Positions 6,552 through 63,180 of a stretch of 64,000 nucleotides of DNA are shown here, one piece after another. The DNA lies in contig CM059582.1 of assembly GCA_030407085.1 (NCBI GenBank), positions 89,518,001 through 89,582,000 of the forward strand, given 5' to 3'. Origin of the DNA: Trichopria drosophilae. Lineage: Eukaryota; Arthropoda; Insecta; Hymenoptera; Diapriidae. Position 1 is the stretch's first letter. Each line of letters starts with the position of its first letter. The translations under genes and the position numbers were made by a program. Below the pieces are notes generated by a model that was not told the DNA's origin, made no database searches, and was given only the letters and a program-made list of their open reading frames with translations.

Positions 6552-6568
6552 ATTTTAAAATTTTTTTT

Positions 6569-15095: not shown

Positions 15096-16186
15096 TTACT
15101 TGAGTAAGTGTTCGAAATGTTGACCTTCCACTTCAATGCATTTATTTATTCTTTCTTCAAATGACTTTATACATGATAGAATCATATCTGCAGAAATTTC
15201 TGCGCAAGCAGTTCTTATGCGTTCCACCATGTTTTCACGAGTCGTTGGTACTTGTTCATAAAACTTACCTTTTAGGTAACCCCATAGGAAGAAATCCAGA
15301 GATGTTAGATCAGGTGACCTCGCAGGCCAATTAATGGGGCCACCTCTACCAATCCACCTACCATTGTAATCACGGTCTCGTATTTCCCTTGCTACTCTTG
15401 AAAAATGTGCTGGGCAACCATCATGCTGAAACCACATTGTCCGTCGGACGTCCATAGCAACATCCTCAAGTAGTAATGGTACTTCTTGTTCTAGGAAATC
15501 TCGATATTTTGTTCCATTCAAATTACCTTCAATGAAATAAGGACCAATGAGTTTATTTCCTATGATTCCACACCAAACGTTCACCGACCAAGGACGTTGA
15601 TGATTAACTTGTCGTAACCAATGGGGATTTTCTACGCTCCAATAATGCATATTATGCCTATTGACGCCACCATGGTTCGTGAATGTAGATTCATCTGAAA
15701 ATAATACATTAGCAAAGAAATTGTGGTTCGTTTGCATTTTTTGAAATGCCCATTCACAAAACACCACGCGGTTATGAAAATCATCGCCATCTAGTTCCTG
15801 GTGCAGTGAAATGTGATATGGGTGAAACTTATGACGATACAATATTCTTTGAAATTGTCTCTGGAAATGCCGGAATCGCGATGTAATTGTCGTGTGCTTA
15901 CATGTGGATTTTGGTGAATAGCTGCTAGTACAGCTACTTCGTTAGCTTCTCCTGTAACTGTTAATCTTCGCTTCCTTTTTTTCATTTGTACGCTGCCATC
16001 AGAGTGAAAGGCATTCACAACTTTGTAAAAAAAAGAACGCGAGCGAGCATTATCTGGAAAACGCTCAGCATACAACGCAACAGCATCGTCAATATTCCTC
16101 TTACATTCACCATAAATAAGAATCATTTCGATTTTTTCGGGAACTGTAGCAGGATTCATTTTTAACTTGCAATTCGATTTAAGCAA
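15096..16186 (-). pseudogene. Mariner-like transposase (DD41D), one frameshift
   Basis: The N-terminal part (16186-15791; start most likely the Met at 16159, MNPATVPEKIEM) is a helix-turn-helix domain of about 110 residues with a basic linker (MKKRKRRLT) and STRQLHRDSGIS. The catalytic part (15842-15096) has FSDESTF (first Asp), WFQHDGCPAHFS (second Asp) and WPARSPDLTSLDFFLWG (third Asp), with 41 residues between the second and third. The two parts overlap in different frames near 15840-15860, so a single one-base indel separates them. The protein would cut and join at TA in the nucleus as a dimer. Order, spacing and the termini agree, and apart from the shift all key residues are present. 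Confidence 0.88.
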
Positions 16187-29909: not shown

Positions 29910-30071
29910 ATGGACGAAACGACTAAATTAATAACTACTATGTCAGAGTGCATGATATTACAAAATGCCATGTCAAGCATTCCTTATTTTGATGGGAAAA
30001 ATTTGCCCCTTAAGAATTTTTTGTCAGATGTTCAAAATGCATCTGCAAACGTACATCAGAAAAATCTCTAA
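29910..30071 (+). pseudogene. Gag N-terminus of Gypsy-A
   Basis: The frame starts at ATG 29910 (MDETTKLITTMSECM) and includes SSIPYFDGKNLPLKNFL, the region typical of Gypsy/Ty3 Gag (capsid). It ends at a stop at 30071. A one-base indel near 30050-30060 shifts the rest of gag into the frame that continues to 32680. Confidence 0.75.
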
Positions 30072-30226
30072 TTAATAGCATTATTGGGAAATTACAAGGT
30101 ACAGCTCGTGATAGTATTTTTAGAAAGACTTTTGTAAAAGTAGATGATTTACTTAGGCATTTAAAGAATAGATTCGCGTCTGCAAAAAATTATCCATTTT
30201 ATATACATGAAATACAACAAATTCAG

Positions 30227-32680
30227 ATGAAACGAGGAGAGACAGTATCTGATTTTTATGATCGTTTAAATATGTTGCTGTCAGGAGCAACTTCTGTTTT
30301 AAAAGATACATATGGCGTTGGCACCTCTGAAATGGTGAAGCCTCTAAGTGATTGTGCGTTAGAGTCATTTTTAAGGGGTCTACCGGACGAGATTTCGGGT
30401 TTAGTTGACGCGTGTGATCCTAAAAATCTAGATGAAGCTTTGCGTTGTGCCGAAAGATTGGAACTGAGAATAAAACCCAAAAGTACAGGATTTCAATCCT
30501 TCTATCATGTGCATAGTGATAATGAAAGTACAGAAGATGAAATTTGGCATAATTATCCTATTATGAAAACTCCTAATTGTCCTGTATCTCGTTCATGGTT
30601 AGGAGAGAGAAATGAACGAAAATCGGGAGATATAACATCGCGAAATGTAGAAAATTTCCCTGCACGATATAATGGGGTAATGGAACCTATGTGGCCATAT
30701 TACCCTCCTTATTTACCTTATCCTCCCATGTATCCTTATCCTCCTTATCCTCCGTATTATGGAAACCCTCCATTCTCTGTACCATTATCGAATTATGGTA
30801 ATAAGTCCTTTAAACTGGAGGGAGACTCGTCTTACAGACGCGCGGACGAGTCTAAGCAGCGATATTCAGCGTCATCCGAAAGTCAAGTTTGTGGAGGAAC
30901 CAGAAATATTAAAATAGTAAATATGGCTACGAATGCGTTGAAAGTAGCTGTTGAGAGTGTCGATTTTAGGAAAAATCCAGGAATCTTTTTAGTTGATACA
31001 GGAGCGGAAGTATCTGTTATTAAATTAAAATCATTAAATTTAGAATCAGAAATGAATATTGATGATAAAATATTTTTAAAGGGAATAACAGATTATAAAA
31101 TTCAGACATTGGGTTCTATAAGAACAACAATTTTTGGAAATAGTAATATAAAGCTTTATGTAGTTCCATCAGCTATACCATTAGATTGCGATGGGATACT
31201 AGGTAAAGATTATTTGGATAAGGAATTAGCAATTATTTCATTATATTACAATACCTTAATATTAGCTTCTAATCCAATAACTCCGATTCAATTTTTGAAA
31301 AATCCAATAGGAAATAATCGTAACGGAGGAGTAACAAATTCTGTTGATAATCATGTACGAAATTATGTATTAAAAAAAAGAACTAAAACTATGGTTAGTA
31401 TAAATGTACTGAATCGCGATCTAAATGAGGGATATTTGCCTAACTTAAAAACAATAGAAGGTATTTACATAGGGGAATCAATAGTATCTGTAAATAACGG
31501 AACTTGCAAAGATTTTGCAATTAACACCTTAGATAAAGACGTAAAAATAGAAATACCTAGTCAGGAATTAATTCCGTTTGAATATTACGATATAGTTGGA
31601 GAACATGAATACTTTAGTGACGAATGTTATGATGAAGTAAATAGTAAACCAATTACATCTTTGGCGGATAAAGTAGAGTATTTAATGAGTAATCTAAGAT
31701 TAAATCATTTAAATACTGAAGAAAGGAAACATATAAAGGATTTAGTTCGAAAATTTCCTGATGTATTTCATATACCAGGTGAAGAATTAATGTGTACTCC
31801 ATATGTTCGTCATTCAATTTCATTAACCGATAAAGTACCTATTAATACTAAACAGTATAGATTTCCTCCGATCCATAAAAAGGAAATTGAAAAACAGATC
31901 GCGGATAAATTGACTAAAGGAATTATTACACCGTCTAGCTCTCCATATAATTCGCCTATTTGGATAGTACCCAAAAAACCGGATAGTAAAGGTAATCCTA
32001 GATGGAGATTAGTAATAGACTTTAGAAAATTAAATGAAAAGACTGTTAATGATTCATATCCTTTACCAAATATAACAGACATTATGGATAAATTAGGTAA
32101 TGCTGTTTATTTTAGTATACTCGATTTAAATTCTGGATTTCAACAAATAGAATTATCGGAAGAAGATAGGTATAAGACAGCATTTACAACACCTAATGGA
32201 CATATTAAATATGTTAGTATGCCTGAGGGTCTTAAAAACGCACCCATGACATTTCAACGTTTAATGGATAATGTTTTAAGGGGACTAACTGGAGCGGAAC
32301 TTTTTGTATATATGGATGATATTGTTGTTTTTGCCAAGGATTTAGAGGAACATCAAAGAAAAATGAAAAGATTATTTAAAAGACTTAGAGATGCTAATTT
32401 ATCATTGCAAGTAGATAAATGTGAATTTTTACAAAAAGAAGTTAAATTTTTAGGTCATATTATTAGTAGTGATGGTTTAAAACCCAATCCAGAAAAAATA
32501 GAAGCAGTAAAATGTTTTCCAATACCTAAAAATCAAAAGAATATTAAAGAATTTTTGGGATTAACAGGATATTATAGGAAATTTATAAAAGATTATGCTA
32601 AGATTGCTAAACCTTTGACAGAACTTTTAAGGAAAAACGTTAGATTCAATTGGGGTAATGAAGAAACTATTAGTTTTTAA
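30227..32680 (+). CDS. gag-pol: Gypsy-A Gag C-terminus, protease and reverse transcriptase
   Basis: The open frame really enters at about 30060; the Met at 30227 is internal. Order: the C-terminal half of Gag (RGETVSDFYDRLN, then SFLRGLPDEIS), a Pro/Tyr-rich stretch (PYYPPYLPYPPMYPYPPYPP) in place of a zinc knuckle, aspartic protease with LVDTGAEVSVIKL, and GILGKDYL. RT follows with WRLVIDFRKLNEKT, SILDLNSGFQQI and the catalytic FVYMDDIVVFA. The thumb and connection region includes FLGHIIS and FLGLTGYYRKFI. The frame ends at a TAA (32678-32680) at the start of the RNase H region. One long translated polyprotein without a gag stop is implied. Apart from the gag shift and the terminal stop it is intact. 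Confidence 0.88.
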   Translation: MKRGETVSDFYDRLNMLLSGATSVLKDTYGVGTSEMVKPLSDCALESFLRGLPDEISGLVDACDPKNLDEALRCAERLELRIKPKSTGFQSFYHVHSDNESTEDEIWHNYPIMKTPNCPVSRSWLGERNERKSGDITSRNVENFPARYNGVMEPMWPYYPPYLPYPPMYPYPPYPPYYGNPPFSVPLSNYGNKSFKLEGDSSYRRADESKQRYSASSESQVCGGTRNIKIVNMATNALKVAVESVDFRKNPGIFLVDTGAEVSVIKLKSLNLESEMNIDDKIFLKGITDYKIQTLGSIRTTIFGNSNIKLYVVPSAIPLDCDGILGKDYLDKELAIISLYYNTLILASNPITPIQFLKNPIGNNRNGGVTNSVDNHVRNYVLKKRTKTMVSINVLNRDLNEGYLPNLKTIEGIYIGESIVSVNNGTCKDFAINTLDKDVKIEIPSQELIPFEYYDIVGEHEYFSDECYDEVNSKPITSLADKVEYLMSNLRLNHLNTEERKHIKDLVRKFPDVFHIPGEELMCTPYVRHSISLTDKVPINTKQYRFPPIHKKEIEKQIADKLTKGIITPSSSPYNSPIWIVPKKPDSKGNPRWRLVIDFRKLNEKTVNDSYPLPNITDIMDKLGNAVYFSILDLNSGFQQIELSEEDRYKTAFTTPNGHIKYVSMPEGLKNAPMTFQRLMDNVLRGLTGAELFVYMDDIVVFAKDLEEHQRKMKRLFKRLRDANLSLQVDKCEFLQKEVKFLGHIISSDGLKPNPEKIEAVKCFPIPKNQKNIKEFLGLTGYYRKFIKDYAKIAKPLTELLRKNVRFNWGNEETISF

Positions 32681-33123: not shown

Positions 33124-33136
33124 AGATAAAATTCTA

Positions 33137-35722
33137 GTGCCGTTGACTAAAGATTGTAAATCACCTCCAGACAGTCAAAATAAAGATGATAGTCATGACA
33201 AGGAATTAATTAAGAGAAAACCTGGTAGACCGTTAGGTTCTAAAACTAATAAGATCCCTGCTCCAATAGACGTTAATGCCATTGCTAGTAGAACAAGATC
33301 AAATGATAACAAAATTAGACAATCAATTCAGACAACATCAAATAATAATAAAATTGATTCAGATTCAGATATAGTAGAATCAGAATCAAATGATGAACTA
33401 GAGAAACCTCCAATTCTTCAGAAACGGAAAAGTGCTTTTCCTAATCTAGAATCAAATGCTCATCAAGAGGTTATGTGTAAAACCCCGATTCAAGAGGAAA
33501 ATTGTACTACTGTTTTTGGGGAAATGTCAAGTGACATAGATATTGAGGAAAACTCGCCTATCTCTATTAATTTGACTGATAACGAAAATGACAATGAAAG
33601 TGATTATTCCGATAACGATAAAACAGTTTCTAAAAATACGGATTCAATTTCGTTAAATCTCCGAGAATTGCGAGAGTTTTTTGATCTTTTGGATGATTCG
33701 ATTCGCGGTCGAGGATATGTCCCTATATCGGACATAGAAAAGAATATTTTAAAATCTAGGGGAATGCAGTCATTACCCACAACTAAAAAAACAAGTGAAA
33801 ACCAAAATTTTAAAATTATTCAAGGCAATGAAATTCTTTTAGAAGGAAAGAATACAGGAAAATCGATTCAATACCCCGAAACGAACTTTAATCCTGATTT
33901 AAACGTTATCGATGAAAATTGCGAAACGGAATTTTTAACTGGATACCGACCTTTGATAATAGATGATCGTATTTTAAACAACCCTATTCCATATACGTCC
34001 ATAATGATGCCGCAACATACGCCAAAACCTATAGCTTTATCTACTCCTTTAGATGAAAATAATTGCAGAACTATGCAAGATGAGAAAAATCTTAAGAAGG
34101 GAGGAACTGAGGAGTTTAAAGACGTTATGCGTCCTAGGATTTTAATTCCTTCTAATTTTGTCGATAATTCTAGTAAGTTACAAATACATGAATGCATCGA
34201 TAATGATCATAAGTTACTAAACGAAGGGGTAGATAGTATTAATGAAAATTTAAACTATGTAAAAGAAAATCTTACTTTTAGTAAGGATAATTATGTACAT
34301 TTTATCTCAGGAGACTGTGAATTGGTAACACCAATTTCGAAACTTTTATCAGATTTAGGTATTTTGAATGCAGATGAATTTAAAACATTAAAACCAAAAG
34401 TAGGTCAAGTATTAATTACTCCTTTTAGACAATATAAAGTTTTTAGTGTAGTTATTAAAAGAAATCATTATGATAATATCTTAAAGGAAAATTTAAGAAT
34501 AGGATTGCAAAATTTAAAAGAAGTATTCTGTAGATTAAACATACAATCGTTTAGAATATCGGAAATTGGAGATTTTTTAGAAGTAAATTCAAATGAAAGT
34601 CTATTTAAATTATTATATGAATATTTTTATTCGATAAAAATTAAAATCATAATATGTAGAGGTAGTATACAAATTCCTCCTGAAAATATGCTAATGGAAA
34701 TAATTTCAGAAAACCATGACAATTTAATTGGAGGACATAAAGGAGTCACTAAAACATACCGGAGAATTAGAGAAAAATGTTATTGGCCCGGATTACGAAA
34801 TGATGTCCAAAATTATATTAGAACATGTAAGAGTTGTCAAAATATGAAATTAGTTAAATCGAAAGTGAAAGAGCACATGATTATTACAGACACTCCGATA
34901 AATGCGTTTGAAAAAATTTCATTAGATGCTGTCGGTCCCTTACCTATAACACCCACCGGTACCAAATATATCATAACAATTCAGGACAATCTGACCAAAT
35001 ATTGTGTTGCAGTACCGGTCCCTAATATAAAAGCAGAGACAATTGCACATGCTTTAGTAACTAGATTTATACTTTTATATGGAGTTCCTAGAGTTACACT
35101 AACAGATAGAGGTGCTAGTTTTATTGGAAAGTTGATGAAAGCCTTAATGCGAATTTTTAAAATAACACCTCTTACGACATCAGGATATCGAGCTCAAACC
35201 AACGGAAGTTTAGAAAGAAGTCATATTGTTTTAACTGAATATATTAGTCATTACCTTGATAAATATACGGACTGGGACATGCTCGTACCATTTGCTATGT
35301 TTTCTTATAATACATCAGTTCACGAAGCTACAAACTTTACACCGTTTGAGTTAGTATTCGGGAGAGTGGCCAGATGCCCAAGTTCATTCCCTGATAATGA
35401 CGGATTTATAACTTATAATACTTATTTGTCTGATTTAATTTCACGATTGACCGAAATGCAGATTTTAGCAGGCAAAAACTTAATTTTAGCAAAAAACAAA
35501 TCTAAAATGAGGTATGATCTCAAATGTAACAGTTTTAAAGGAAAAATAGGAGATAATGTTCGAATTATGATAGAGCCTAAACCAGGCAAATTTCAACCAA
35601 AATATAAGGGAAATTATAAAATTGTTGACGTTTTAGAAAAAAATAATTTAATCTTGCAAGATGAAAATGGAAAAAGATTTATCAAACACGTTGATAAAGT
35701 TAAGTTAACTTCTAACGATTAA
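33137..35722 (+). CDS. Gypsy-A pol C-terminal ORF: AT-hook-like linker, macro-like domain, integrase
   Basis: 861 codons without a stop. Residues about 26-40 hold RKPGRPLGSK, an AT-hook-like motif, followed by a long acidic, probably disordered linker to about 380. Residues about 386-508 (34290-34660) read like a TARG1/OARD1-type macrodomain: VHFISGDCELVTPISKLLSD (compare the usual h.h.SaD...g.gIA), GQVLITPFRQYKVFSVVIKR, ENLRIGLQNLKEVF, IQSFRISEIGDF and KIIICRG. Integrase follows: an HHCC finger (H..NLIGGHKG ... CKSCQNMK), then the core with LDAVGPLP, LTDRGASF and NGSLERSH as D, D and E, and a C-terminal domain ending 35722. The macro segment lacks the full G-x-G loop, so ADP-ribose binding is uncertain. 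Confidence 0.85.
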   Translation: MPLTKDCKSPPDSQNKDDSHDKELIKRKPGRPLGSKTNKIPAPIDVNAIASRTRSNDNKIRQSIQTTSNNNKIDSDSDIVESESNDELEKPPILQKRKSAFPNLESNAHQEVMCKTPIQEENCTTVFGEMSSDIDIEENSPISINLTDNENDNESDYSDNDKTVSKNTDSISLNLRELREFFDLLDDSIRGRGYVPISDIEKNILKSRGMQSLPTTKKTSENQNFKIIQGNEILLEGKNTGKSIQYPETNFNPDLNVIDENCETEFLTGYRPLIIDDRILNNPIPYTSIMMPQHTPKPIALSTPLDENNCRTMQDEKNLKKGGTEEFKDVMRPRILIPSNFVDNSSKLQIHECIDNDHKLLNEGVDSINENLNYVKENLTFSKDNYVHFISGDCELVTPISKLLSDLGILNADEFKTLKPKVGQVLITPFRQYKVFSVVIKRNHYDNILKENLRIGLQNLKEVFCRLNIQSFRISEIGDFLEVNSNESLFKLLYEYFYSIKIKIIICRGSIQIPPENMLMEIISENHDNLIGGHKGVTKTYRRIREKCYWPGLRNDVQNYIRTCKSCQNMKLVKSKVKEHMIITDTPINAFEKISLDAVGPLPITPTGTKYIITIQDNLTKYCVAVPVPNIKAETIAHALVTRFILLYGVPRVTLTDRGASFIGKLMKALMRIFKITPLTTSGYRAQTNGSLERSHIVLTEYISHYLDKYTDWDMLVPFAMFSYNTSVHEATNFTPFELVFGRVARCPSSFPDNDGFITYNTYLSDLISRLTEMQILAGKNLILAKNKSKMRYDLKCNSFKGKIGDNVRIMIEPKPGKFQPKYKGNYKIVDVLEKNNLILQDENGKRFIKHVDKVKLTSND

Positions 35723-35787: not shown

Positions 35788-37329
35788 ATGGATACGTCAC
35801 GGATTAATCGATTATTTCTATCCCGATTGGCACCTCATACGACGAGTAAATATCTTATTTCTCAATTTAAGGATGAGTGAGTTGTAAATGCTTACGTACA
35901 TAAGCGAGCTACTGGCAATATAGCGTTTATAACTTTTGCTACTCCTGAACAGGCCCTTCGAGTCCTGGAAAGGAGTAATCAATGTCCATATATCCTTCAT
36001 AAACGTAAACTCGTCATTAAACCCGCTGATTCTTGGAATCTTCGTGGTTCTTTAAGAAAAGCCCCAGCTCGCATCGAAGATGAAATACAAGAAGAACTCG
36101 CTAGTATTCTACCTGTAGAATGCATAGCTATGATAGCTTCATATCTTTCATTTCCGGATCGAGCTTGTCTTGAAAGAGTGTCAAGAAGGTGGCGAGACGG
36201 GGCTATCGCGTCATATAGGTGGGTAACAACATTGTCAGATTCATCGGAAATGTGGAACAGGTCTTGGGACAATTCTCCAATAACGATTGATGGGGTATAT
36301 TGGTTTGTTCGGAAAGCCGGGCGGTATCTGCGGGCTTTGCAGCTTCGTCATGAACTTCCGTCACAAGTAGGTTCCATCATAGCTACACATTGCCCTATAC
36401 TTGAACATCTTGATCTGGCCGGAGTAGTTATTCGACCCACTACATTTATAATTTTGGGTGAGAGAGCAAAGCAGTTGCGAAGTCTTGTTTTGGGTAAGAC
36501 AATCGGACCCATCGAAAACGATCTGCACCGGATATTTTGTGAAAACAAGCAGATAAAGAGTGTCACTTTTTCGGCTTCACAAGTAACCGGAAAATGTTTT
36601 AATGGATCAAATCTCCAGTTAACACAGTTGCAGATCGATAACTGTGATCGATTGATTTCCTCAGAGCTGACTTTATTTCTGAAAACTCATGAACATTTAG
36701 AGGAGTTAATAATAGTTAAAGGAAGAACTTTGAATGGTCCTAATGTTCTTGAAGCTCTAGCGAATTGTAATAACCCAGGAGCTTTACGCTCTCTCAAAGT
36801 ACCAGGATTAGGGATAAATAATGGGATGAATGAAGAGGAAAGGAATGGCGAAGAGGCGGATTCGGCCGATGCTGTCGCGTTTTTTGAGCTTCCCAATGTC
36901 CTATTAGGAATCGAAGGACCGAAGATGAATTTAAGTTGTACAAATTTACAAATTCTGGAGCTCAGATTTTGTCCTTTGGTGGATGATATTTTCGTTAGCG
37001 GAGTTGGTCGAAATTTATCCATGCTTAAGATCTTGGACATCGCGGGATGTTCAAATATTCGCGATGATTTTGCGCTAGAGCCGCTCTCGAATTTAAATAA
37101 ATTGGAAATACTTAGGATGTCGATGCTTCGACCTAATATCGCTGCCACCATCTTATACTCCTCCTTGACATTGTGCACTTTCGAAGCCCGCGATTGTTAT
37201 GGTAGTAGTGGGGAAGAAATTTGTGGGTTATTAAGACGATCACCGCATTTATGTCACCTGGATATTGAAGGATGTATTAATGTTGGTAGGGAAGTTGTGA
37301 ACTGTGGACTGCTGTCCTGGCCGCCATAA
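35788..37329 (+). pseudogene. RRM / F-box / leucine-rich-repeat protein, one in-frame stop
   Basis: From ATG 35788 one frame runs 513 codons with a single TGA at 35878-35880. It has an N-terminal RRM fold (RNP2-like LFLSRL and RNP1-like GNIAFITFA, residues about 8-82). An F-box (ASILPVECIAMIASYLSFPDRACLERVSRRW) lies at about residues 105-140. Leucine-rich repeats run to the end (for example LEHLDLAG, LQILELRFCPLVDD, LKILDIAGCSNIRDD). It begins 65 bp after the Gypsy-A pol stop, behind a T-rich tract ending TTCTTTAATAG, which looks like a splice acceptor. It is clearly GC-richer than Gypsy-A. The 3' end abuts another element near 37330, so the C-terminus may be cut. Possible roles, substrate selection for an SCF ubiquitin ligase plus RNA binding, are inferred from domains. 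Confidence 0.75.
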
Positions 37330-49694: not shown

Positions 49695-52070
49695 TTAAAT
49701 ATAGGTATGTAATAATACCAATAAAATAGAGTCGTGGTCGTCGCGTCGAAGGTGAAAGATGAAGCGGATGACAGAATTTAGCATTCTCTCCAGCTTCATC
49801 CTTAATGTCCAGTCAAGGTCATTGTAGACTGCGCAGCAATAGTCGAAGTGTAAGCCGAGATTTCGGACTGTCTTGGCCCATGGAATGATATTATTCTGTA
49901 CTCTTATAGGTGGTAAATTGGTAAGTTCCAATAGATTAATAAAGTATGAACTTCCAATCATAATTGCTTGCGTTTTAGAAAAATTTATAGTGAGATCATT
50001 TGCGAGCGCCCTTTCGACGTCACTGGTTAATCGCGCACAAACTTCCTTTATTTCTTGTGGAGAGCAGCTCAGAAAGATTTGTGAATCATCGGCAAAGATC
50101 ACATGCATGGTGTGTCGCAAAACAGATGGAAGGTCGTTTATGAATATGGAGAAAAGTAGCGGGCCTAGAACAGAGCTCTGAGGCACATCAGCATTGATAG
50201 GTAGCACCATTGTCGACAAAAATGGCCTGCGACCTGTTTGTTAGATAGGAAGCAAACCATGCGAGAGCTGGATTAGAGCAGTGGGCGGCTTAAAGTTTCT
50301 CCAAGAGAATGGTATGGTTCACTGTGTCGAAGGCTTTACTAAAGTCGAACTATAAAAGGATAACAACATTACGATTTTCTATAGCCTCACGACAAAAATC
50401 ATTGACTAGAAGTAGTACCGTTTGGGTATTAAAGCCCCCGCGAAAACCAGACCGATACGGTTCGAACCAATTTGGTTCATTTAGAAAGGTGACAATCTGA
50501 TCATAATTGGTTTATACCAATCTCTCTAGAATTGTCGATGGTGTACATAAGATGGAGACGAGACGGTAGTCAGAAATACAAGACGGCAATTTCTTTTTAT
50601 TTATTGGCACTACCAAAGCCTTTTTCCATTCGGCTGGAAAGGTGGACGAATTAAGTGAAAGATTGAAGAGATAGATTAAATGAGTGGCGATGATGGGAAA
50701 GGTTTTCAAATAAAAACTAATCCGTGTTTGATCTACACCTTTTGCCTCAAACCTTCGTCGCGTGACACATGTCAATAGATTGTCTAATGTAATATTCGAG
50801 AAATAAAACATGGTATCCTGAGAGTTCTGAGTCGTCGAAAGGAGAAGTACGAACGATGGAGATAAGGCTGGTACTCTATTGGCAAAAGAAACAAAATGAA
50901 AATTTAGTTCTTCAGGGGTGCAGCAAAGTGGACGAGATTTTACCGCAGAATTAGCCAACCCAAGTCTACGAAGTTTAGCCCAAGTGCTTTTTGGATATCG
51001 AGAGCTGCGTGTGATTACACTTTTCACGTGACAATCGCCAAGCTGTTCTGTTAGTTTTGTTGAGAGATATTAATTTGAGTTTCGCGTCCGGATCGCGTGT
51101 GCGACGAAAAGCACGCAGAGTAGAGTCACGTTCGCGCTTTAGTGAGCGCAGCACCACAGTAACCCAGGGTAATGCTTTACTCTTCGGTATGGTGGTTCTT
51201 AGAGGAGCAAATTTATCAAAAGATGATATTATTCTATGCGAGAGGGTCGAACAAAGGAAGTCAATAGACTGATGAGTGCCAGTAGCACATCTAAACATAC
51301 TCCAATCGCATTTCTCAAAGTCATCCAGCAACACTTCCAAACAAAAATTGCAGTAGTCGCGGCAAGTAATAGCAGTCGTATTATCCGTATAAATGTTTAA
51401 ATCGTATTCAATTGATATCAAATCATGTCCATATACGAATGGTAAGCTAATTTGTGAAACAGACTTAACATTATCCAGGCTATCAACTATACAATGGTCA
51501 ATCCACGAGTCTGCGGTGGCACTATGAAAAGTAGGGGAGTAGTCAACAATCTGTAAGCTGTTTTCAAGAGCAAACTGCTTCAGATAGGTAGCAGCATGCG
51601 AATGTTTTTGCAAATCGATATTAAGTCACCCATTATTATAATGTTATTATAGTTGCAGCTTAGAGATATTGCAGAGCAGCCCCGAAGTTTTCTGGCATCG
51701 GTTTATTAGGCGGGCGTTAAATGACGGAGACAAGCACAGGAGAGCATGCGTGGCCAGATATTTCAGCAATCATAAACTCATTTTAGGTGTCCGAAATATC
51801 TGATAGAGCTAATAATTTACAGGCAAGTTGCTTATGAATATACATAGCTACACCCCCACCGCTTAAGCCCCCCGGTCATGGCGAACGAGATAATATTTAT
51901 CGAGTTGAAAAAATTTGTCCGGAGATTGATCCGTGAGCCAAGTTTCTGTTAAGAGTATAATATCAAAAAGATTAGTTCAAAGTAGTCGCAAAATCCAGGA
52001 AATTTATTTTTGGACTTTATAGACTGAATATTTAAATGACAAAATTTTCAAACTCGATAATTTGATAACT
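49695..52070 (-). pseudogene. LINE ORF2: AP-endonuclease and reverse transcriptase
   Basis: The endonuclease begins near 51960 with ILLTETWLTDQS and ends in SWIDHCIVDSLDNVKS and FVYGHDLISIEYDL (about 51540-51400), the D-H region. RT follows: FPAEWKKALVVPI and ISDYRLVSILCTPS at about 50650-50540, a damaged palm start near 50350, SSVLGPLLFSIFINDLPS at about 50170, and FADDSQIFL at about 50090. The C-terminal part ends at 49695. Shifts lie near 51000, 50500 and 50220, and the IDHC region shows several substitutions. The protein would nick target DNA and prime reverse transcription there. This copy cannot do so. Confidence 0.78.
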
Positions 52071-52138
52071 TTAGACGTGGATAATGCTGGAATAGCAGCA
52101 GCGTTGACAGCATCCATAGAGATGACAGATGTAAATCT

Positions 52139-53145
52139 CTATAACATTTGCCCCTCTTGCTGATCTATAATGGACGATGCCCTTGTAGAAGTAGACGGAA
52201 TCTCAGGGTGTTCTTTTAAGATTGCACGAGCCTTTTTCAGTAAATTGCGCGTCTCTATTGACAGAGATTCGTTTATATTTACACGAGACATCGGGAGCTC
52301 TGGAAAGATGAGATTAGACGTAAGACCTTTGTTGAGTCTCATTGCCTGTATAAATTTTGTCCTTTGCGCGGATTGGACAGCTTGGCAATGATTACTTGAG
52401 ATTGACCGTGAGTGGACGCCACTGTAGATGTCGTTGAAGTCGATGCAAAGGTTGATAGATCATTGCCAGATGTGTGACTAGCGTTGGGATCATTTAATAA
52501 ATTTGTACCAAGACGTTCAATGGATAGCAGATCGCGTGCCTTCATTGTAACTTCTAAGACTTCCACTATTTTGAGGAAAATTACATCCAGATCCTCATTA
52601 AACGTTTCGGGAAGCCCAGTAATGACTAAGTCGCTACATCGTAGCTCATATGCATTAGTAGCTTTACGTTTTAGGACCGTGCACGTATGATTTTGTAGGA
52701 TAGCTACTGATTGTTTCATTTCCTGGACAGTAGAATTGAGGTTCAACACTGAATCGAGTTTAGCGCATAGCTCTGCATGTTGCTTGTCATGTCTGGTTTA
52801 GAAATCCCGAAATTCGTGCGATGGTAAGATCGCATTATCAATGGCCTCGGAGGTAGTAGTCTCCACTGACAAAGCACTATTTGAGCGCGTGATAAGTTTC
52901 GGGGCAGCCAAAATATTATCTGCAGCTCGTTTTCTGCCACGCTTAGGTGCAGGAACTAAGCAACAGGTTGGTCCGTTATCTGTCAAAGTACTGGCTACTG
53001 GTACACAAGTGGTGTGATAGAGTGAGGCACAGACGAAACATTTGACGCTATCTTTTTCTTCACCAAGATTAAGGCATGCCATGCAAGTAGCCATAAATAA
53101 AAAATGAAAAGAATTCAGCTGTGAATTAAATGTATTTATACACAC
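52139..53145 (-). pseudogene. LINE ORF1 with PHD-like zinc finger
   Basis: The first part (53145-52798) begins MATC near 53094 and carries CMACLNLGEEKDSVKCFVC....YHTTCV, a Cys4-His-Cys pattern like PHD fingers known from ORF1 of CR1-type LINEs. A basic PAPKRGRKRAAD follows. After a shift, 52749-52339 carries a predicted coiled coil (VQEMKQSVAILQNH), then LRCSDLVITGLPETFNEDL. After a further shift, 52342-52139 has LIFPELPMSRVNINESLSIET and TRNLLKKARAILKEHPE. The protein would coat the LINE RNA. At least two frameshifts are present. Confidence 0.7.
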
Positions 53146-54420
53146 ATCTACTATAAACCATACATACGTCAGTGCAAATGCTCAATCGAGCGGCACGAAA
53201 AAGCTCGCTTAGCACGGATTGAGAGTCCCGTGTCAACTGGATCCGCGATGAATCGGTGATCGATGAGTCAAATGCTTCTTCCCACCAGTCTCAAGCGCTC
53301 GAAGAAGGGATAGCTCAGTATTCAAGACTATAGCGCGAGATCCAGCGAAGAGATTGGGATCTATATATGTCGAGAAGTAGAGGCACTATGCTCGAGCAAT
53401 CGATATAGTGTTATTGGCTCCTATTAATAGATTTCCAGCGGAGCATTAACTGATCATCTGTTAAGCACAATAACAAATAGCTAACCAACTAATGCGAGAT
53501 CCACTTAATCATACGAAAATGACACAAGAAATTATTATTTCCTCAAGTTCCTCTTAACAAGTATTGTCCTCAAAGCACGTTCCCTTTAGGTTATGATGCA
53601 CAGTAGTCCAATTTGTCACCAATATAATTCTTTGATGCATCCTCACATAAAAACTATAAATCCAGTTTCGCAAAGTCTTCAATTAGCTGCACAGTGCACA
53701 GATCACCACACTATAAATACGTAGGAGAAGACGCGTAAAAGTACTTTATTAAGAGCGAGCAAATTTAAGCACGTTTCAAGCTCGGTCTGCTCGGGAAGTC
53801 CTGGAAGTTCCGGAGAATCTTGATCCCCGAAGAATGGTCCCCATTTCGAAGTGTCATGCAATTTTCAGAATACATGCATTAGTTTGTCAGTCAATATATT
53901 ATTGTATTATTTGCAATTCCTTACATTTCGTTACGCACATATGCCAGTTAATTTATCATCACAGCATTTACATTCATTTTCACAACAAAATATTCATCTT
54001 TACAATATTTGATACGACAAAGAATTCTAGTATTATATAACTCTATTAGTAAACAAAACTAATATAAAAAATGGGGTAAATAATAAATTAAGTAAAAACA
54101 TTTAGTTTTGAGGCTATAATGGTAACACCCGACAGCCAACGGAGGGGCATATATCGTAGATTTGTAAGATGAACCATTCTTTCTTTACAATTCAAGGTAT
54201 TGCTTGTCAATAATATCATATCATAATTGCTGTTTTACTTCCTATACATTTCTGCAATGTCATCTATTTAATAGGTAATATGGACGATGTTGAAGTTTGC
54301 AACGTTCGAGGCGATCGAAAAAAATTTCCTTTTTTTTGTCGAACGTATTTTTCCTATCCTTGTCATATACGAACCTCATAAATGACAAAAATAAAATTTT
54401 CGAAAATTTGGGTGCTGGTG
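53146..54420. other. No gene; probable LINE 5' region then AT-rich DNA
   Basis: 53146-53820 is of balanced composition and may be the LINE 5' UTR or older sequence. 53830-54250 is AT-rich. No coding signal. Confidence 0.35.
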
Positions 54421-55585: not shown

Positions 55586-57150
55586 TCAGATTCCGATGAA
55601 ATTTCCCTCGCCGTAGTTTGTTGTGCCTATTTTCACTGTATTAGCGTCTCTAGAGAATCGCACTGTCGGTGATTCTGTATAACGGCGTTGTTTGTTTCCT
55701 CTTCGTTGATTGGAGTGAAAATGGATCAGTCTTTTTCCCCGAATGCATTGCCAATAGAGAACTATACCTGCTGCCACTAGGATTATTGCGGGTGCACCGT
55801 AAAAGGTGGTTCCTTCCACGATCTTTATGCGGCTATGAATCTCTATAGCCTTAGTGATGGCTCGCGCTCTATTCACAAGTTCGTGAATTAATGTGATTAT
55901 TCCTGTCCCATTCAGCACCGGAGTGGAAACTGTGGTGATCCCGCAGTTGATGCGTATAGTTTCCGCCACTGCCGCAGAGTACAGCCAAGAATTAGCGGCG
56001 CGGAGTTAAATCCAAAATGTGCCTTTATGGGCGATGAGTCGCATGTCGCAGTTGTCGAAACTTCGAAACTTCATTTCAGTTAACATTCGCACTTCGCAAT
56101 CAGTGTCCTGGTTCACAGTGTATATCGGTGACTCACCATGACATACGTAGGTGTCGCCACTCCTTTTGCACTGGCGATACATTTCCGTCGATAATCGGAT
56201 ATACTTATCCCTCCCGTTCGTTATCCCCGAGTATGGAGTTGATGGTATCACTAATACCGATTTGGATTGGTTTCCCAATTTCTGGGGCACGGGAACTGAT
56301 CGATGTTCATAGATGACGAACCTCGTGTGAGACACCAGCGGTAAATATAGCGCATACATGAGTGTATCGTTCATGAATGCGATTTTCAGCCCAGATACAT
56401 CTAGTAATCGTCCAGGGTTATCTGCGTAAGCTGAATTGGGTGAATCTGCGATACGAATTCTGGATGAATCTGCCCAGCCTTTGCAAAAAGGACAGCGTTC
56501 ATCAGCTGGTCTGCCTCAGAGGCGTATCGTTGTATCTCCGCCTCGATAATAGTCATCACATGAGTCAGCTTTTCGGTGGCCGCTCTTTGTTCGACCTGTG
56601 ACTCGATTAATGCGCGGTCCATCCAGAGTTTGCTTAGCGACTCGTTGATATTTTGCATTTCCTTATGCAGGCCCGAAAATTCGACGGCGATCATCTGGGT
56701 ATGCTCTGCAAGAAGCGTCGCCTTATCCGACACTCTTTCGTTCGTCGTTTCGATCTGGTGCCGGAGTGTCTCCACTTCCTCCTCTTCTGCCGTTCCAAAT
56801 AGTATTTTGCTTATCCTTCCAACCCATCAGAGGACGGCGCGCTTCCTCCGACCTTCGGATCCCGATAAGATTTCCATGAGATTTGCATTCTTTCTATTAA
56901 TTTCGCGCAACAGTACGCGGGATTCGCGTGTTCGATCATGTAGATGACAGCTGTGTATTTCAACGCAGCGTTGCTCCAGAATTTTGAGATTGGCTTGTAA
57001 TTCGTCTTGTTTGTGGAAATAGCCGTTCAAGGGTACCTTGGACACCAACTTCCACTCCGTGTGGGTCAAGCACATCTGCCCGATTTTCTCAGAGAAAATT
57101 TGCAGCGTTTCTGCGATCGGTAACAATTGATACCCCGCGCTGGATTTCCT
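55586..57150 (-). pseudogene. Envelope-like (F-type fusion protein) remnant of Gypsy-B
   Basis: Pieces on the minus strand keep the layout of insect errantivirus/baculovirus F-like envelopes. The N-terminal subunit part (57126-56827) ends in a furin-type basic site, GRRKRAVL. A stop lies directly after it, then a fusion-peptide-like segment and a helical region to 56401. A Cys-containing ectodomain part (56374-56006) follows. A C-terminal part (55969-55586) has a transmembrane segment (APAIILVAAGIVLYW) and a basic tail. At least one stop and two shifts make it non-functional. The presence of env marks Gypsy-B as an endogenous-retrovirus-type element. Assignment is by layout, not by alignment. 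Confidence 0.6.
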
Positions 57151-57557: not shown

Positions 57558-58640
57558 CTACGAGCCGGCCGATACGTCGGAATATCGTTCCTCGTCTTCA
57601 TCGAAGATCGAAGGATCGTATCCTTTCCGGATTTTATCCATATGGAAGATTTTTGTCCGCATTTCGTCAATATGTAATCGCGCATTTCTTGGCCCTAAGA
57701 TTTCAATAATTTCATAGGGGCCTACGTACGTGTCGTCAAGTTTCCCGTGTCGCGGTTCCTTGACGAGCATGACCTTCTCCCCGACCCTGAAGTGTTTGAT
57801 ATTTTGTTTCCGGTCGTAATATCCCTTAGAGCGGAATTTCGCCTGATTCAAATTTAGACCTGCGAAGGTCTGTATTTCCCTCAGGTTTCGGGCAAGCTCC
57901 TCTACGTATTCAGGATACGTCGGTATACCTTCTTTTGGAGGAACGCTGGACGGTAGGCGCGCGTTTTCACCGAACACTAGCTCGTGTGGAGCGTATTTCG
58001 TACCCTCATGAACACTAGTGTTGTGTGACAACATGGCATAAGGGATCCACGTATCACATTTTTCGCGACGTTAACCTACGAAGCACCTCAGATATTCAAT
58101 CAGAACGTTATGGCTCCGTTCTATATTGCCGTTGGATTGCGGATGGTAAGCGGTGGTTAAAAATTTCTTTATTTTAAATAATCGAGCCAGCGCTTCGAAG
58201 ACTTCAGACACGAAATTCCTACCCAAGTCCGTTAGCAATGTCCGAGGTGCGCCAAATTTACAGATAAAGTGAATAGCGAACGCTTCGGCTACAGTCTCCG
58301 CCGTGCCGTCGATCATTGGTACTGCCACCGAATATTTCGTTAACAAATCCTGCATCGTGAGTACAAATTTATTTCCGTCATTTCACTAGGTTGTCGGTCC
58401 CATAAATCCATTAAGATCTTATCGAATGCCGTTGCAGGTAAGTCAGTGATCATCATGGGTAGTCTCGTTTTGCTTCGGACTGTTTTCCCGTGTTGGCATT
58501 CGTAGCATCGCCCGATCACTTCAGACACGTCCTTCTTCATGTTTTTCCAATAGTAATTTCGTATTAACCGGTCCTACGTTTTCTTGATCCCCTTGTGACC
58601 CCCCGACCCAGAGTAATGGTGCTCTCGTATGATCATATAC
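57558..58640 (-). pseudogene. Gypsy-B integrase
   Basis: The HHCC finger lies at about 58625-58490: EHHYSGSGGHKGIKKT, a stop, then C-Y-E-C in GRCYECQHGK. The core reads MQDLLTKYSVAVP, PRTLLTDLGRNFVSEVF (second catalytic Asp) and YHPQSNGNIERSHNVL (Glu). The first Asp region near 58400 is disturbed by a shift. The C-terminal domain (58034-57558) is open from LSHNTSVHEGTKYAPHELVF to the end, including GEKVMLVKEPRHGKLDDTYV. Two to three lesions are present. Confidence 0.82.
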
Positions 58641-59030
58641 CTTAGGTACTGCGAGAGAGTTCTTGAACATTACTATCGTTACCTGGTATTTTACATGGGT
58701 ACGGAGAATTTCGGGAATCGTCCACCACATCGGTGACGAGAGCATTTCATAATCATGCCCCGTGTGAATGGTATCGACGACGGTTTCTACTATTGCTCTG
58801 TTGAGTTGTTTGATACAGGATGTTATCGTTGCCTTCGATGCTCTTTCGTGGACAGTCCTTTTGACTACCATTGCGAATAGCCAATGATTTCCTGACTTGG
58901 TCGTCACGACCTTCCGTACAGTCAGGTTCTCCTGTTTTAATTTCATGAGTGTAATTAAAAATTTTTCACGGAAAAGTTGATCTACTTCGCTATTCAGTTC
59001 ACCGTCGGCCGTGGTGAAGTATGGGATATG
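58641..59030 (-). pseudogene. Macro-like domain in Gypsy-B pol, ahead of integrase
   Basis: The open frame 59510-58521 contains, at about residues 161-290, a segment with the order of a TARG1/OARD1-type macrodomain. It reads HIPYFTTADGELNSEVDQLF, then LTVRKVVTTKSGNHWLFAMV, VKRTVHERASKATITSCIKQ and IVETVVDTIHTGHDYEM, then IPEILRTHVKYQVTIVMF. It lines up position by position with 34290-34660 in Gypsy-A, and each lies directly before the integrase zinc finger. The H-T-G-H-D part may stand for the G-x-G loop. No stop lies inside it, but the frame shifts before integrase. Function inferred: ADP-ribose binding or removal, not shown. Confidence 0.6.
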
Positions 59031-59244
59031 TCCTTTCTCACTTGTCACATGACGATTCGAGAATATTATCGTAGGTTCGCCCTTTTCTGGGTGATTTCGG
59101 TCACGTTCTCCGGATTCCTTCTCGCTTTCAGTGGAGGATGATGGTAGAGGTTTGTTTTGCGGATCCGATGACCTTTCTGCAGGGTCCCCGTCATGATCAG
59201 GTAAGGAATGCATATCAGAGTTTGGTGACTTTACCTCTTTCCTG

Positions 59245-59575
59245 CACGGCGTATAATGGATATTCCTCAGATGTGAGTGAAGCCATTTGTATGTGGTTTT
59301 GATACTAATATGGAAATATTGCGTCATTACAGGATCCGAATCGTAATGAACGCAAACGTTTACACTGAAATGCGCCGCAAACAACCGTACGTGATTGTCA
59401 TTTCCGAACTCGTTTGGGGAAAGCAGTATATTTCGAATCTCCTCTGGTTCAGCGCATTTCGTAAAATCCCCCAAATCAAGTAGAGTATTCCGGAGCTCCT
59501 TCGGTGTCATTTTAATCGATGCGCTTTGATGAGCGCATCAAACAAACAGTTCACGTCCGTAACCGTTTCTTCGTC
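59245..59575 (-). pseudogene. OTU-like cysteine protease domain in Gypsy-B pol
   Basis: DVNCLFDALIKA (Cys codon at 59546-59548) resembles the OTU catalytic box D-G-N-C-L-F-R-A, with the Gly replaced by Val. After a one-base shift near 59510-59525, TPKELRNTLLDL, FGNDNHVRLFAAHFSVNVCV and an HYT pair near 59252-59260 follow. These match the order of OTU helices, the W/G-N..H..LFA.....V strand and the C-terminal His. A macro-like segment lies about 215 bp downstream. The family would cleave ubiquitin or ubiquitin-like conjugates. Similarity is short and by eye, so this is tentative. Confidence 0.45.
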
Positions 59576-59584
59576 GTTTATTAA

Positions 59585-60128
59585 CCACTTCAGTGGTAGC
59601 AGTTTAAAAAAAAAGTGCCAGAAGTGGTACACCCTGTACTTAAGATATCGAAAAACGGTGAAACACGGGTTCCATATTTTCCTAAAATATATCATTTAAT
59701 ATAAATATTAATAAAATCATTTAACATTTAATTAATCATTTAAAAAAATCAAGTAATATTTCACATTAATGTCCGCCATCTTGGATCCACCATTTTGAAT
59801 TTACAAAATCTAACTTCAGATTCGTAATCAGCGACCCCGAAAACCCCCGAGTAACAATTTTCTGCTGTTTTCCGTATAAAGAAAAATGTGCACCGCACAT
59901 TTTAATAAATTTAGCAAATTTACAGCCGCCATATTGGATCCGCCATTTTGAATTTTCCCATTTTGACGACAGATTCGGATTCAGCGACACAAAATATCTC
60001 GGTATACGAAGTTTCATGCAAATTCATTAAGAATTGTAAAAGTTATTGCAAAATGTACACATATGATCCATTACCACGTTTGTCAATAATTTTTTTTGTA
60101 CATATATGATCCATTACCATTGAAGTGG
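59585..60128. mobile_element. TTAA-flanked MITE inserted in Gypsy-B pol (544 bp)
   Basis: TTAA at 59581-59584 and 60129-60132 flank termini CCACTTCAGTGG and CCATTGAAGTGG. The inside holds two units of the dispersed GGCGGATCC repeat (59770-59990). The Gypsy-B frame on the minus strand is in phase across the insertion if one TTAA copy and the MITE are ignored. This shows the exact insertion and that it postdates Gypsy-B. Confidence 0.85.
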
Positions 60129-60640
60129 TTAAGATCGCGAACAGTTCGGCGCATTTCGTATGTGCCTCATAGTTAAAGAGAGGTGATCTGCTTGCAGGAG
60201 TATCTGCAGGCGATGACGTATCACCGTGGTGTACGTCATTCACCTTCGGGCTTGAGGGAGATCTCGACATCAGCCGTGTCTGTCATTTCCAACTCGTCAT
60301 CTCGTGAACGAATATCAACGACTTCGTCGCTAGAGTACTCCCTCTCCTCGTCGACGGGAGAGGGGGCGACTTGCCGCTTAGTCCTTCTCGGTCGGCCCTC
60401 GGACGCACTTGCATCCATTGAAGTAAATATTCTCTCGCTACTTGACGCGTATGTGGCCGCAGTAGTGCTCTCTCCTTTCCGCGCGTATTTACTATCTCTT
60501 TCCACGCTGCGCGGCGAGGGGGTACCCAATTCATCGGTATGACTTGGGCAGTGAGGCGAAACGTTTTCGCTGCATGCTATGTGTTCGCCTGGCTCATCCG
60601 CGCTACTCGTTGCGGACCGAAATTCTTTCCTCTGGATTCG

Positions 60641-62990
60641 TTACCTGCGGCTAACCCGTCTCGCAACGTTTGTGACGGACCCTATGGAATCGCGGCGCTC
60701 TTCGTGCCGGTGACGATCTCTCTTTCTACCGTCATCCAGCGCGGGGTTTTCCTCTTTGTCACGCTCCTTGCGCCTCTGATCCGGTGTGCGCGATTTCTTC
60801 TTGCGCCGCCTCTTCCAAATGTCGCTCGTTTTGGAGCTCTCGCTATTTCCCTCGTCCTCCTCCAAGGGTTTAATGGCTATTTTTCCCCAAATACGGTGGC
60901 TATAATTTTCGCGTGGGGGCTTTGCCTCTATTTTCTGAGGCGATACGCCGATGAAATGGGGTTCCTTAAGTGAACGTAGAGTCTTTTCCTCCTTTTCATC
61001 GGCCTCAACTTTCGCGAACGTTGCTTCGTCCGTTTCCGCAGCGATAATTTCATACGGCCAATGCCCCAGTCGGTCTTCCCATCTGACCATGTAATCCTTA
61101 TCTCGATTTGTCACGAAATTATTAACATCCATAATTATACCCGGTGAAACGTCGGAACTTCCATTTTCTGAATCGGTATCCATTATTACCGTTGAGGCCA
61201 AGTGTGGTTCTTCCACCTGTATTGGCGGGGATAGGTTTCGTATTTTTAAATCTTCCGCGTCATTTTGCGCGTCTCGTCGATTCTCTTGCGACGTCGGCGA
61301 ATTTTGGGGCCGATACGGCCTCCCTGATCGCGTCTTCCCGGGATTTGTAAGTTTCATCGGGGTTTCCTGAGCGTCAGGTTCAACCATTACATATTTCCAA
61401 TATTTACTGACTGAGGAACCCTTTGGTTTCCTTGGTTGCTTAATAGTTCCTTTGGACGTTTCCCTTTCCTTATTTAGTCGTTTCGTGGCGTCGGCGCAAT
61501 CATTTGGTCGTTTTACCTTACGGTCAGCTGGGTTACCTGAGCTTGACTCCGAGCATTGATGAGTCTGGTATTGGTGGAATTCTTTCGGTCTTTTGGAACC
61601 TCGTTCGATGGGTCTCTTTTTCCGGAGCGGTAATACGCTCTCCACGACTGGGGGTTCGAATTCTCCTCCCTGATCGTCGCCGCTTTCTATCGGCCAAAAG
61701 GTGTTTGATAGATTTATTTCGCCGTGGCTGTTGCTGTTAGGTCTCTCGACCTCGTCTACTGGATTTCGTGACAGCGCATCAGCATTTGCGTTATTCGAGC
61801 CCGGTTTATATTTTACCTCGTAGTCGTAATCCTCAAGCTTCGTTCGAAAACGGTACAGGCGGATAGTCAGGTTTTTCATGGTCTTTAGATATTTAAGGGG
61901 CTGATGATCAGTATAAATGGTGAACTTTCGGCCGTATAAATATGGCCGAAATTGTTCAACCGCGAAAACTGCAGCGAGCATTTCCTTGTCACTCGTATGG
62001 TATCGCGTTTCAGCTCCCCTTAGACTCCTAGAGGCATATCCTGACGCATCAGTCGTCACGAGGAAAGGTCTCGAGAAATCGGGCAATTGTAACACTGGCG
62101 CAGAACACAATTTTTTCTTTAATGTTTCAAACGCTTCAGTTTGTTCCACTCCCCACTCAAATGGGACAGTTTTTCGTAATAATGATGTCTTCGGATAGGC
62201 TATTTTCGAAAAATGTTCGATGAAGCGCCTGTAGTATCCGGCTAGCCCCAAGAATTGTTTAATTCGCTTGGGATCGGTGGGTTGCGGAAAATCCCTCGCG
62301 GCTTGGATCTTGCGTGGATCAGGTTGCGCTTTATTCTCGGAAATCACGTGACCTAGATAACAGGCCTCTCTTTGCAGAAAATTACATTTTTGTGGTTCCA
62401 GAAAGAGATTTGCTTTGGCTAATCGTGCCATTAGCATGTCGAACTTCTTCTGATGCTCTGCTAAATTTTTTGCATACACCACGATATCGTCTAAATACAC
62501 GAGTAGTTCGATGCCTTGCAATCCGAGTAGTGCAAGCTCCATTAGACACTGGAAGGAACCTGGCCCATTCTTTATACCCATAGGCATACGAGTGTATTCG
62601 TAATGCCCGCGAATCGTCGAGAATGCCGTCTAGTGGGCATCCCGTTCGTCCATTTGTATCTGGTAGAACCCTGACTTTAAATCGAGCGTCGTAAAATACT
62701 TTGCTTGGCTGAGCACATCGAATATGTCAGCTATGTTGGGGATCGGGTAGGCATCGCCAATCGTTTTCTCGTTCAGGTCTCCAAAATCAGTGACGAGCCT
62801 CCATTTTTTTTCCTCATTTGGGCCTCCCTTTTTTGGTACTACCCAAGCCGGTGAATCGTATGGCGTTGCTTCGCCACGAGCCGCTCCATCTCTTGTTTTA
62901 TTATGGGCGGGTGGCGAAAGCGTTTCGTCTGACGGGTACGTCGTCGATCGTATGTATCCTATGTGCGAAGACTGACGTCGCGCCGAGGTT
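60641..62990 (-). pseudogene. Gypsy-B reverse transcriptase, RNase H and linker
   Basis: RT N-terminal blocks lie at about 62990-62590, with a TAG near 62631 in the DERDAH..TAFST region. The 648-codon frame 62587-60641 continues with LVYLDDIVVYA (catalytic YLDD), CYLGHVIS and FLGLAGYYRRFIEHF. RNase H has LVTTDASGYA, joined directly to SRSLRGAETRYHTSDKEMLA and IYTDHQPLKYL. About 15-20 residues are missing between the first two, so RNase H is probably dead. After VKYKPGSNNANADALSRNP a linker of several hundred residues, rich in Lys, Glu, Pro and Arg, runs on (60641 and further 60529-60140). It leads to the OTU-like and macro-like segments. Confidence 0.85.
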
Positions 62991-63180
62991 CTCTCCCGTT
63001 AGGTGGAATCTCTCGGCATGCTTGGCGACGAGCTCGCGCACGTGCTTCCGTTCTTCCTCCGTTCTTTCAAGTCCGTCAATTCTAACACCCTTTCGGCTCG
63101 ACTCTTACTCGCCTTTGTGACGTGGACCTTCGAGCGATGCGCCGTATCTTCCGTTTCCTGAAATCTTGAGCAGTCCTCAT

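Follow-up and report, generated by a model that had tools for sequence, protein, structure and literature searches.

Gypsy retroelements of the hymenopteran Trichopria drosophilae carry, directly before the integrase, a macro domain whose nearest solved relative, judged by sequence profile and by predicted fold, is TARG1/OARD1, and in part of these elements a putative OTU deubiquitinase domain stands in front of it. Both arrangements occur in one stretch of 64,000 nucleotides (contig CM059582.1, positions 89,518,001 to 89,582,000; hereafter the window), as Gypsy-B, which has both domains, and Gypsy-A, which has the macro domain only. Of the two domains, macro is the more important finding. We favour, tentatively and at a little under an even chance, a reading in which an insect-type Gypsy lineage bears an N-terminal integrase extension descended from TARG1/OARD1, a sub-lineage later added the OTU domain in front of it, and the pair keeps an integration complex usable when it has been tagged. 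The parts of this reading that are supported are the relation in sequence, the fold as predicted, the place in the element, the conservation, the purifying selection and the large number of copies. If it is true, ADP-ribose and ubiquitin signalling would be something that insect retroelements meet during integration, and the two domains, being small, could each be tested alone.

Two macro profiles, built from different elements, found TARG1 (OARD1, C6orf130; of the ALC1-like macrodomain class) and nothing else in 177,635 PDB sequences. Across four queries the best E-values to TARG1 were 1.5e-13, for a profile of Gypsy-A and nine database proteins that matched only five TARG1 sequences, 5.8e-4, 0.0091, for the Gypsy-A macro domain alone (five of five matches), and 0.0019, for the most distant database protein, P0013, which also matched one unrelated row at 0.025. 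TARG1 is likewise the best match of the predicted macro fold, at about 20% identity. An earlier reading, made from the window alone and here called the sequence-only reading, had likened the OTU and macro domains to the pair found in RNA-virus polyproteins; the macro domains of such viruses are close by fold alone, and by sequence the one solved relative found is the cellular TARG1. DarG, a bacterial antitoxin, differs in that its macrodomain gave no sequence match in the PDB profile searches. A single macro piece from one copy (L005) found nothing relevant in PDB, and Pfam returned no Macro match for 20 Gypsy-B-type members or for ten members from other elements. In the genome Pfam Macro was matched at three places (two near each other on C3, one on C2), none of them among the listed element copies.

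Gypsy-B lies on the minus strand, its frames extending from the window end (64 kb) to about 55.6 kb, and Pfam and profile searches give the order reverse transcriptase (RT) with RNase H, OTU, linker, macro domain, integrase and Baculo_F envelope. The two domains had been placed between RNase H and integrase of an envelope-bearing, errantivirus-like Gypsy (Metaviridae), and the element does have pol together with an F-type envelope in this arrangement. RT and RNase H occupy two frames (60641..62998, by Pfam), the integrase core and a C-terminal SH3-like part two others (57558..58382; rve at E 3e-8, SH3_Tf2-1 at 5.8e-6, below its cut-off), and the envelope two overlapping frames (56006..56826; E 5.2e-20, with the second frame at 0.0049, below cut-off). 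Three pieces of one OTU domain were recovered by a profile of 36 copies, from which the window copy was excluded. These are a severed N-terminal piece (approximately 60133..60192, in frame 60046-60282; E 3.9e-6), the catalytic-Cys box (59510..59580, in frame 59510-59695; E 1.8e-8), and the remainder down to the His motif NIHYTP (59220..59516, in frame 58524-59537; E 3.3e-48). The D-x-NCLF-x-AL box named in the sequence-only reading is present as DVNCLFDAL, read downward from an Asp codon that starts at 59557, and the OTU-like order behind it was borne out. An insert of 552 bp (59581..60132), which we take to be MITE-like (of the miniature inverted-repeat kind), lies between the N-terminal part of OTU and the Cys box; TTAA stands at both of its ends, and its 18-bp terminal inverted repeats, which begin TTAA, are seen twice at up to 3 mismatches against 0.10 expected. 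The His half shares a 338-aa frame with the macro domain (about 58632..59105), from which it is separated by an acidic, Ser-rich and weakly constrained linker (59106..59219). For the macro segment, which had been described as macro-like, E is 5.7e-76 with the Gypsy-B profile and 1.4e-12 with the profile built from other elements, and K and E stand at the equivalents of Lys84 and residue 125 of TARG1. With its OTU domain split by the insert and by a frameshift, the window copy is dead. The differing frames of the Cys box and His half, the TTAA insert and a further frame change directly after the macro domain go beyond what had been noted before.

Single sequences of this dead copy give some ground for regarding the region as an ordinary, functionless and variable RNase H-integrase linker, in which likeness to OTU and macro domains arose by chance. 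At E 1, Pfam matched neither OTU nor Macro with the 338-aa Gypsy-B frame or its OTU part, and the window macro part alone drew only two weak, unrelated matches; single window pieces found nothing relevant in PDB, and one such piece found no relative at 0.01 among 565 candidates in a protein database search. Identification of the domains therefore rests on relatives. The agreement of the two macro profiles on TARG1 counts against chance, as do the decoy frames, which reached no better than 0.003 with the OTU profile and 0.086 with the macro profile, and the purifying selection described below; the sole other match of the OTU profile in the window up to E 1 was a reversed decoy frame, at 0.0031. 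We regard chance likeness as very improbable overall, and for the macro domain it is already unlikely.

The OTU region shares with OTU deubiquitinases (OTUD3, OTUD1 and those of nairoviruses and tymoviruses) the catalytic Cys in a D-G-N-C-L-F box, the C-terminal catalytic His and a predicted OTU fold, and it differs from them in its weak sequence score and in lying inside a Gypsy pol. Pfam OTU matched 13 of 20 copies at a best E of 0.01, a weak result (16.5 bits against a cut-off of 23.3 for the first member), and OTU profiles reached 0.2 and 0.063 at best in PDB, also weak; the single OTU piece of L005 reached 0.3, to EschOTU. Searches of PHROGs gave families of unknown function only (best 0.0017, with the OTU piece), and neither of two queries found a relative in viral_contigs. 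Of 7529 candidates in a combined-profile protein search, P0004 was the one outside relative, and it has an OTU domain; no macro match was found in it up to E 1, its source contig being 2.8 kb, so that the protein may be cut. Other open frames in the genome, at L076-L093 (C1-C4, C8, C11, C12, C231, C295), score OTU above the Pfam cut-off, some of them repeated on small contigs; among ten frames from nine of these loci, eight have OTU and none has a Gypsy pol domain at E 0.1.

At least 205 matches to the 338-aa piece occur in the 936-Mb genome, many in open frames of 500-1990 aa; with a diverged relative as query there are at least 163. By identity the copies sort into about seven families, labelled A-G in this analysis, with some 40-60% identity between families. 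Seventy loci, or 63 distinct copies after seven repeats were dropped, formed the alignment pool, and the alignments themselves hold open frames only (A1 and A2 with 20 rows each, A3 with 35 and A4 with 36). OTU residues D33, N35-F38 and H133-P136 and macro residues D50 and K98 are invariant in 20 open copies. Counts over the 63 copies, which take in broken copies and are mostly best-scoring matches, not a random sample, place the OTU Cys in 58 of 61 covered copies (two Phe and one gap, two copies being uncovered), the C-terminal His in 62 of 62 covered, the macro Lys in 59 of 63 and an acid at the equivalent of residue 125 in 60 of 61. Copies share, on average, 0.95 identity with their best-matching family query in OTU and macro alike, self-matches counted; relative to the average residue Cys and Lys are retained about equally, His and the acid slightly more. 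A stronger sign of constraint is the purifying selection between families, which acts on OTU and macro and more weakly on the linker. The ratio of nonsynonymous to synonymous differences (pN/pS) is 0.28, 0.35 and 0.65, respectively (105 pairs, 16 copies), where synonymous sites are saturated (pS 0.77-0.89), pN/pS being used for that comparison and overstating the true dN/dS. Within families the corresponding values are 0.30, 0.54 and 0.87 (15 pairs). The conserved Cys/His pair, purifying selection and predicted OTU-like fold by which the sequence-only reading proposed to be judged were thus all found.

Its further claim, that OTU and macro form one cassette at one insertion point, is not borne out by Gypsy-A. 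This element, on the plus strand, has two large open frames (30014..32680 and 33125..35722), the second of which, 865 aa, comprises linker, macro domain (34226..34690, before the integrase zinc finger) and integrase; no match to the OTU profile was found in Gypsy-A. Its macro domain scores 7.2e-12 against the Gypsy-B macro profile, and at least 150 places in the genome match it. Nine database proteins contain a macro domain of the same type, and the named hosts among them are three bees, Anthophora retusa, Osmia lignaria and Lasioglossum baleicum. Precomputed Pfam annotation of the nine gives differing combinations of RT, RNase H, H2C2 and rve, with PF07727, presumably the RVT_2 domain, in P0006 and no domain in P0008; Macro is listed for none of them. 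With the OTU profile nothing better than 0.14 appeared among the nine, some of which are fragments; P0005 starts about 100 residues before its macro domain, and OTU absence cannot be read from it. The integrase zinc-finger motif follows the macro domain by some 20-25 residues in nine of nine aligned rows and in eight of the nine database proteins, P0008 being an exception in which the model jumps to a later part of the integrase. A 16-row tree of the integrase, from which families D-G, P0006-P0008 and P0011 are absent, has a branch (100/99) that parts the ten rows with OTU (families A, B and C) from the other six. With the macro domain occupying this position in the absence of OTU, and the OTU-bearing rows all on one side of the tree, a single two-domain cassette is not supported. 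Among these sequences the macro domain is wider in range than OTU, with OTU a likely later gain; since the tree is unrooted, this is not the sole reading.

TARG1 uses Lys84 and an acidic residue at 125, written Glu125 in the available part of one source (PMC7050489); the PDB chain reads Asp at this position. Gypsy-B rows have K at the Lys84 place in 34 of 35 cases, with R once, and all 35 have an acid where TARG1 has residue 125. Among ten rows from other elements, in an alignment gapped near residue 125, six have both Lys and acid and four (P0009-P0012) have neither. P0009, P0010 and P0012 cluster at 92/91, short of the 95/80 that the tree program sets as its mark, and P0011 is absent from the tree; because the three group together, the loss is best counted as one. 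The macro domain is retained in all four, Osmia and Lasioglossum among them. Two absences weigh against the favoured reading, in which the domain works on ADP-ribose: the Gly-x-Gly of loop 1 is found in none of 45 rows, and neither, in the same 45, is the Asp at the aligned place that we take to be the adenine-binding Asp of TARG1. Within the lineage the pocket is conserved, but it is not that of TARG1, and ADP-ribose binding cannot be assumed. As the Gly-rich ADP-ribose loop and the adenine Asp are replaced, the macro domain is filed as a TARG1 descendant and not as an active TARG1.

The main rival makes the macro domain a binding module of little catalytic power, carried by the integrase as a tether that would read chromatin (through ADP-ribose, nucleic acid or protein) and steer integration, with OTU as a polyprotein-processing protease. 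Chromodomains are thought to steer integration for other Gypsy integrases. The position directly before the integrase zinc finger suits a tether, as does the loss of the Lys/acid dyad in P0009-P0012, and in viruses macrodomains have lost activity and been retained (PMC10221186, in the portion available). A processing role for OTU is in keeping with its fold matches, which include the plant virus protease/deubiquitinase of turnip yellow mosaic virus (TYMV). Both Lys and acid are present in 34 of 35 Gypsy-B rows and in six of ten others, which is beyond the need of a pure scaffold, and we judge the tether unlikely, though a serious contender.

In the favoured reading of an integrase extension with a later OTU, the macro domain would stay joined to the integrase and, at the integration complex, use the Lys/acid pair and a binding pocket remodelled from that of TARG1 to act on ADP-ribose-type marks carried by cDNA ends, integrase or chromatin. 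OTU would take ubiquitin off proteins of the element itself or off what surrounds them, so that integrase or Gag might be spared from the proteasome, and together the two domains would keep the integration complex in working order when the cell tags it. A macro domain would be fitting as an integrase extension because TARG1 strips ADP-ribose from both proteins and nucleic-acid ends, according to the accessible text of PMC7050489. A narrower version has a Gypsy integrase capturing a cellular TARG1-type hydrolase and the envelope branch adding OTU, the polyprotein then erasing both parts of the hybrid ADP-ribosyl-ubiquitin mark and cleaning cDNA ends and integrase. This mark is made by DELTEX-type ligases. 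The version, whose whole grounds are the pairing of OTU with macro and PMC7615817 and PMC12583694, as far as their text was available, seems to us improbable.

A counter-defence role of the two domains is possible, and it was the one offered by the sequence-only reading: one module freeing host immune proteins of ubiquitin and ADP-ribose, as RNA-virus polyproteins do. The evidence supports both domain types and shows purifying selection on each, and host PARP-type sequence is found at three places (Pfam PARP, best 5.6e-63). The envelope association also favours it. A same-strand OTU/macro match lies upstream, no more than 8 kb away, for 34 of the 72 Baculo_F envelope places listed, the distance being 1.5-2.4 kb for 32 of the 34, when all 72 are compared with 115 OTU/macro entries drawn from part of the matches (at least one place being entered twice); envelope-bearing OTU/macro copies therefore exist outside the window as well. 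Of the 38 other envelopes, one comes after a Gypsy-A-type macro domain, in a comparison that used 113 of 150 macro places, and 37 have no OTU/macro match upstream within the partial lists used. Against a counter-defence module stand the macro domain without OTU at the same place, a sequence relation that indicates TARG1 and not alphavirus types, and the dyad loss in one group; the idea is weakened further because the ADP-ribose loop is changed. We rate it as rather improbable.

Extra domains in Gypsy pol are already known, as is OTU in Ginger1 and Helitron elements. Dual-RNase H Athila/Tat elements and retroviruses resemble the present case in being Ty3/Gypsy elements or retroviruses with an extra pol domain, and differ in that the gained domain is RNase H (PMC9040795, in the part available). 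Ginger1 transposases, with a Gypsy-type integrase, carry a C-terminal OTU or Ulp1; they are DNA transposons in which OTU follows the integrase, whereas in Gypsy-B it precedes it, and the accessible portion of the source mentions no macro domain (PMC2836005). OTU in Helitrons is reported in the text available from PMC6431247, and adintovirus polymerases are the subject of one OTU mention in PMC11071296. Fish epsilon-like endogenous retroviruses (ERVs) also combine a retroelement with macro domain proteins, encoded in additional open reading frames, the kind of macro domain being unspecified in the available excerpt (PMC4977317, citing Basta 2009). No relevant OTU or macro mention was found in the main texts of PMC6338049, PMC12440569, PMC13172572, PMC12992720, PMC9040795 and, with the phrases used, PMC2774666. 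A TARG1-type macro domain beside an integrase, alone or with OTU, was not found in the mostly open-access literature covered, and an earlier description is possible.

Further frames in the window were recognised by eye. An F-box/leucine-rich-repeat-like frame, possibly a host gene, lies directly after Gypsy-A (35881-37329, plus strand). On the minus strand are a DDE-transposase-like frame (15096-15941) and LINE-like reverse transcriptase frames (4872-6554 and 49695-53181).
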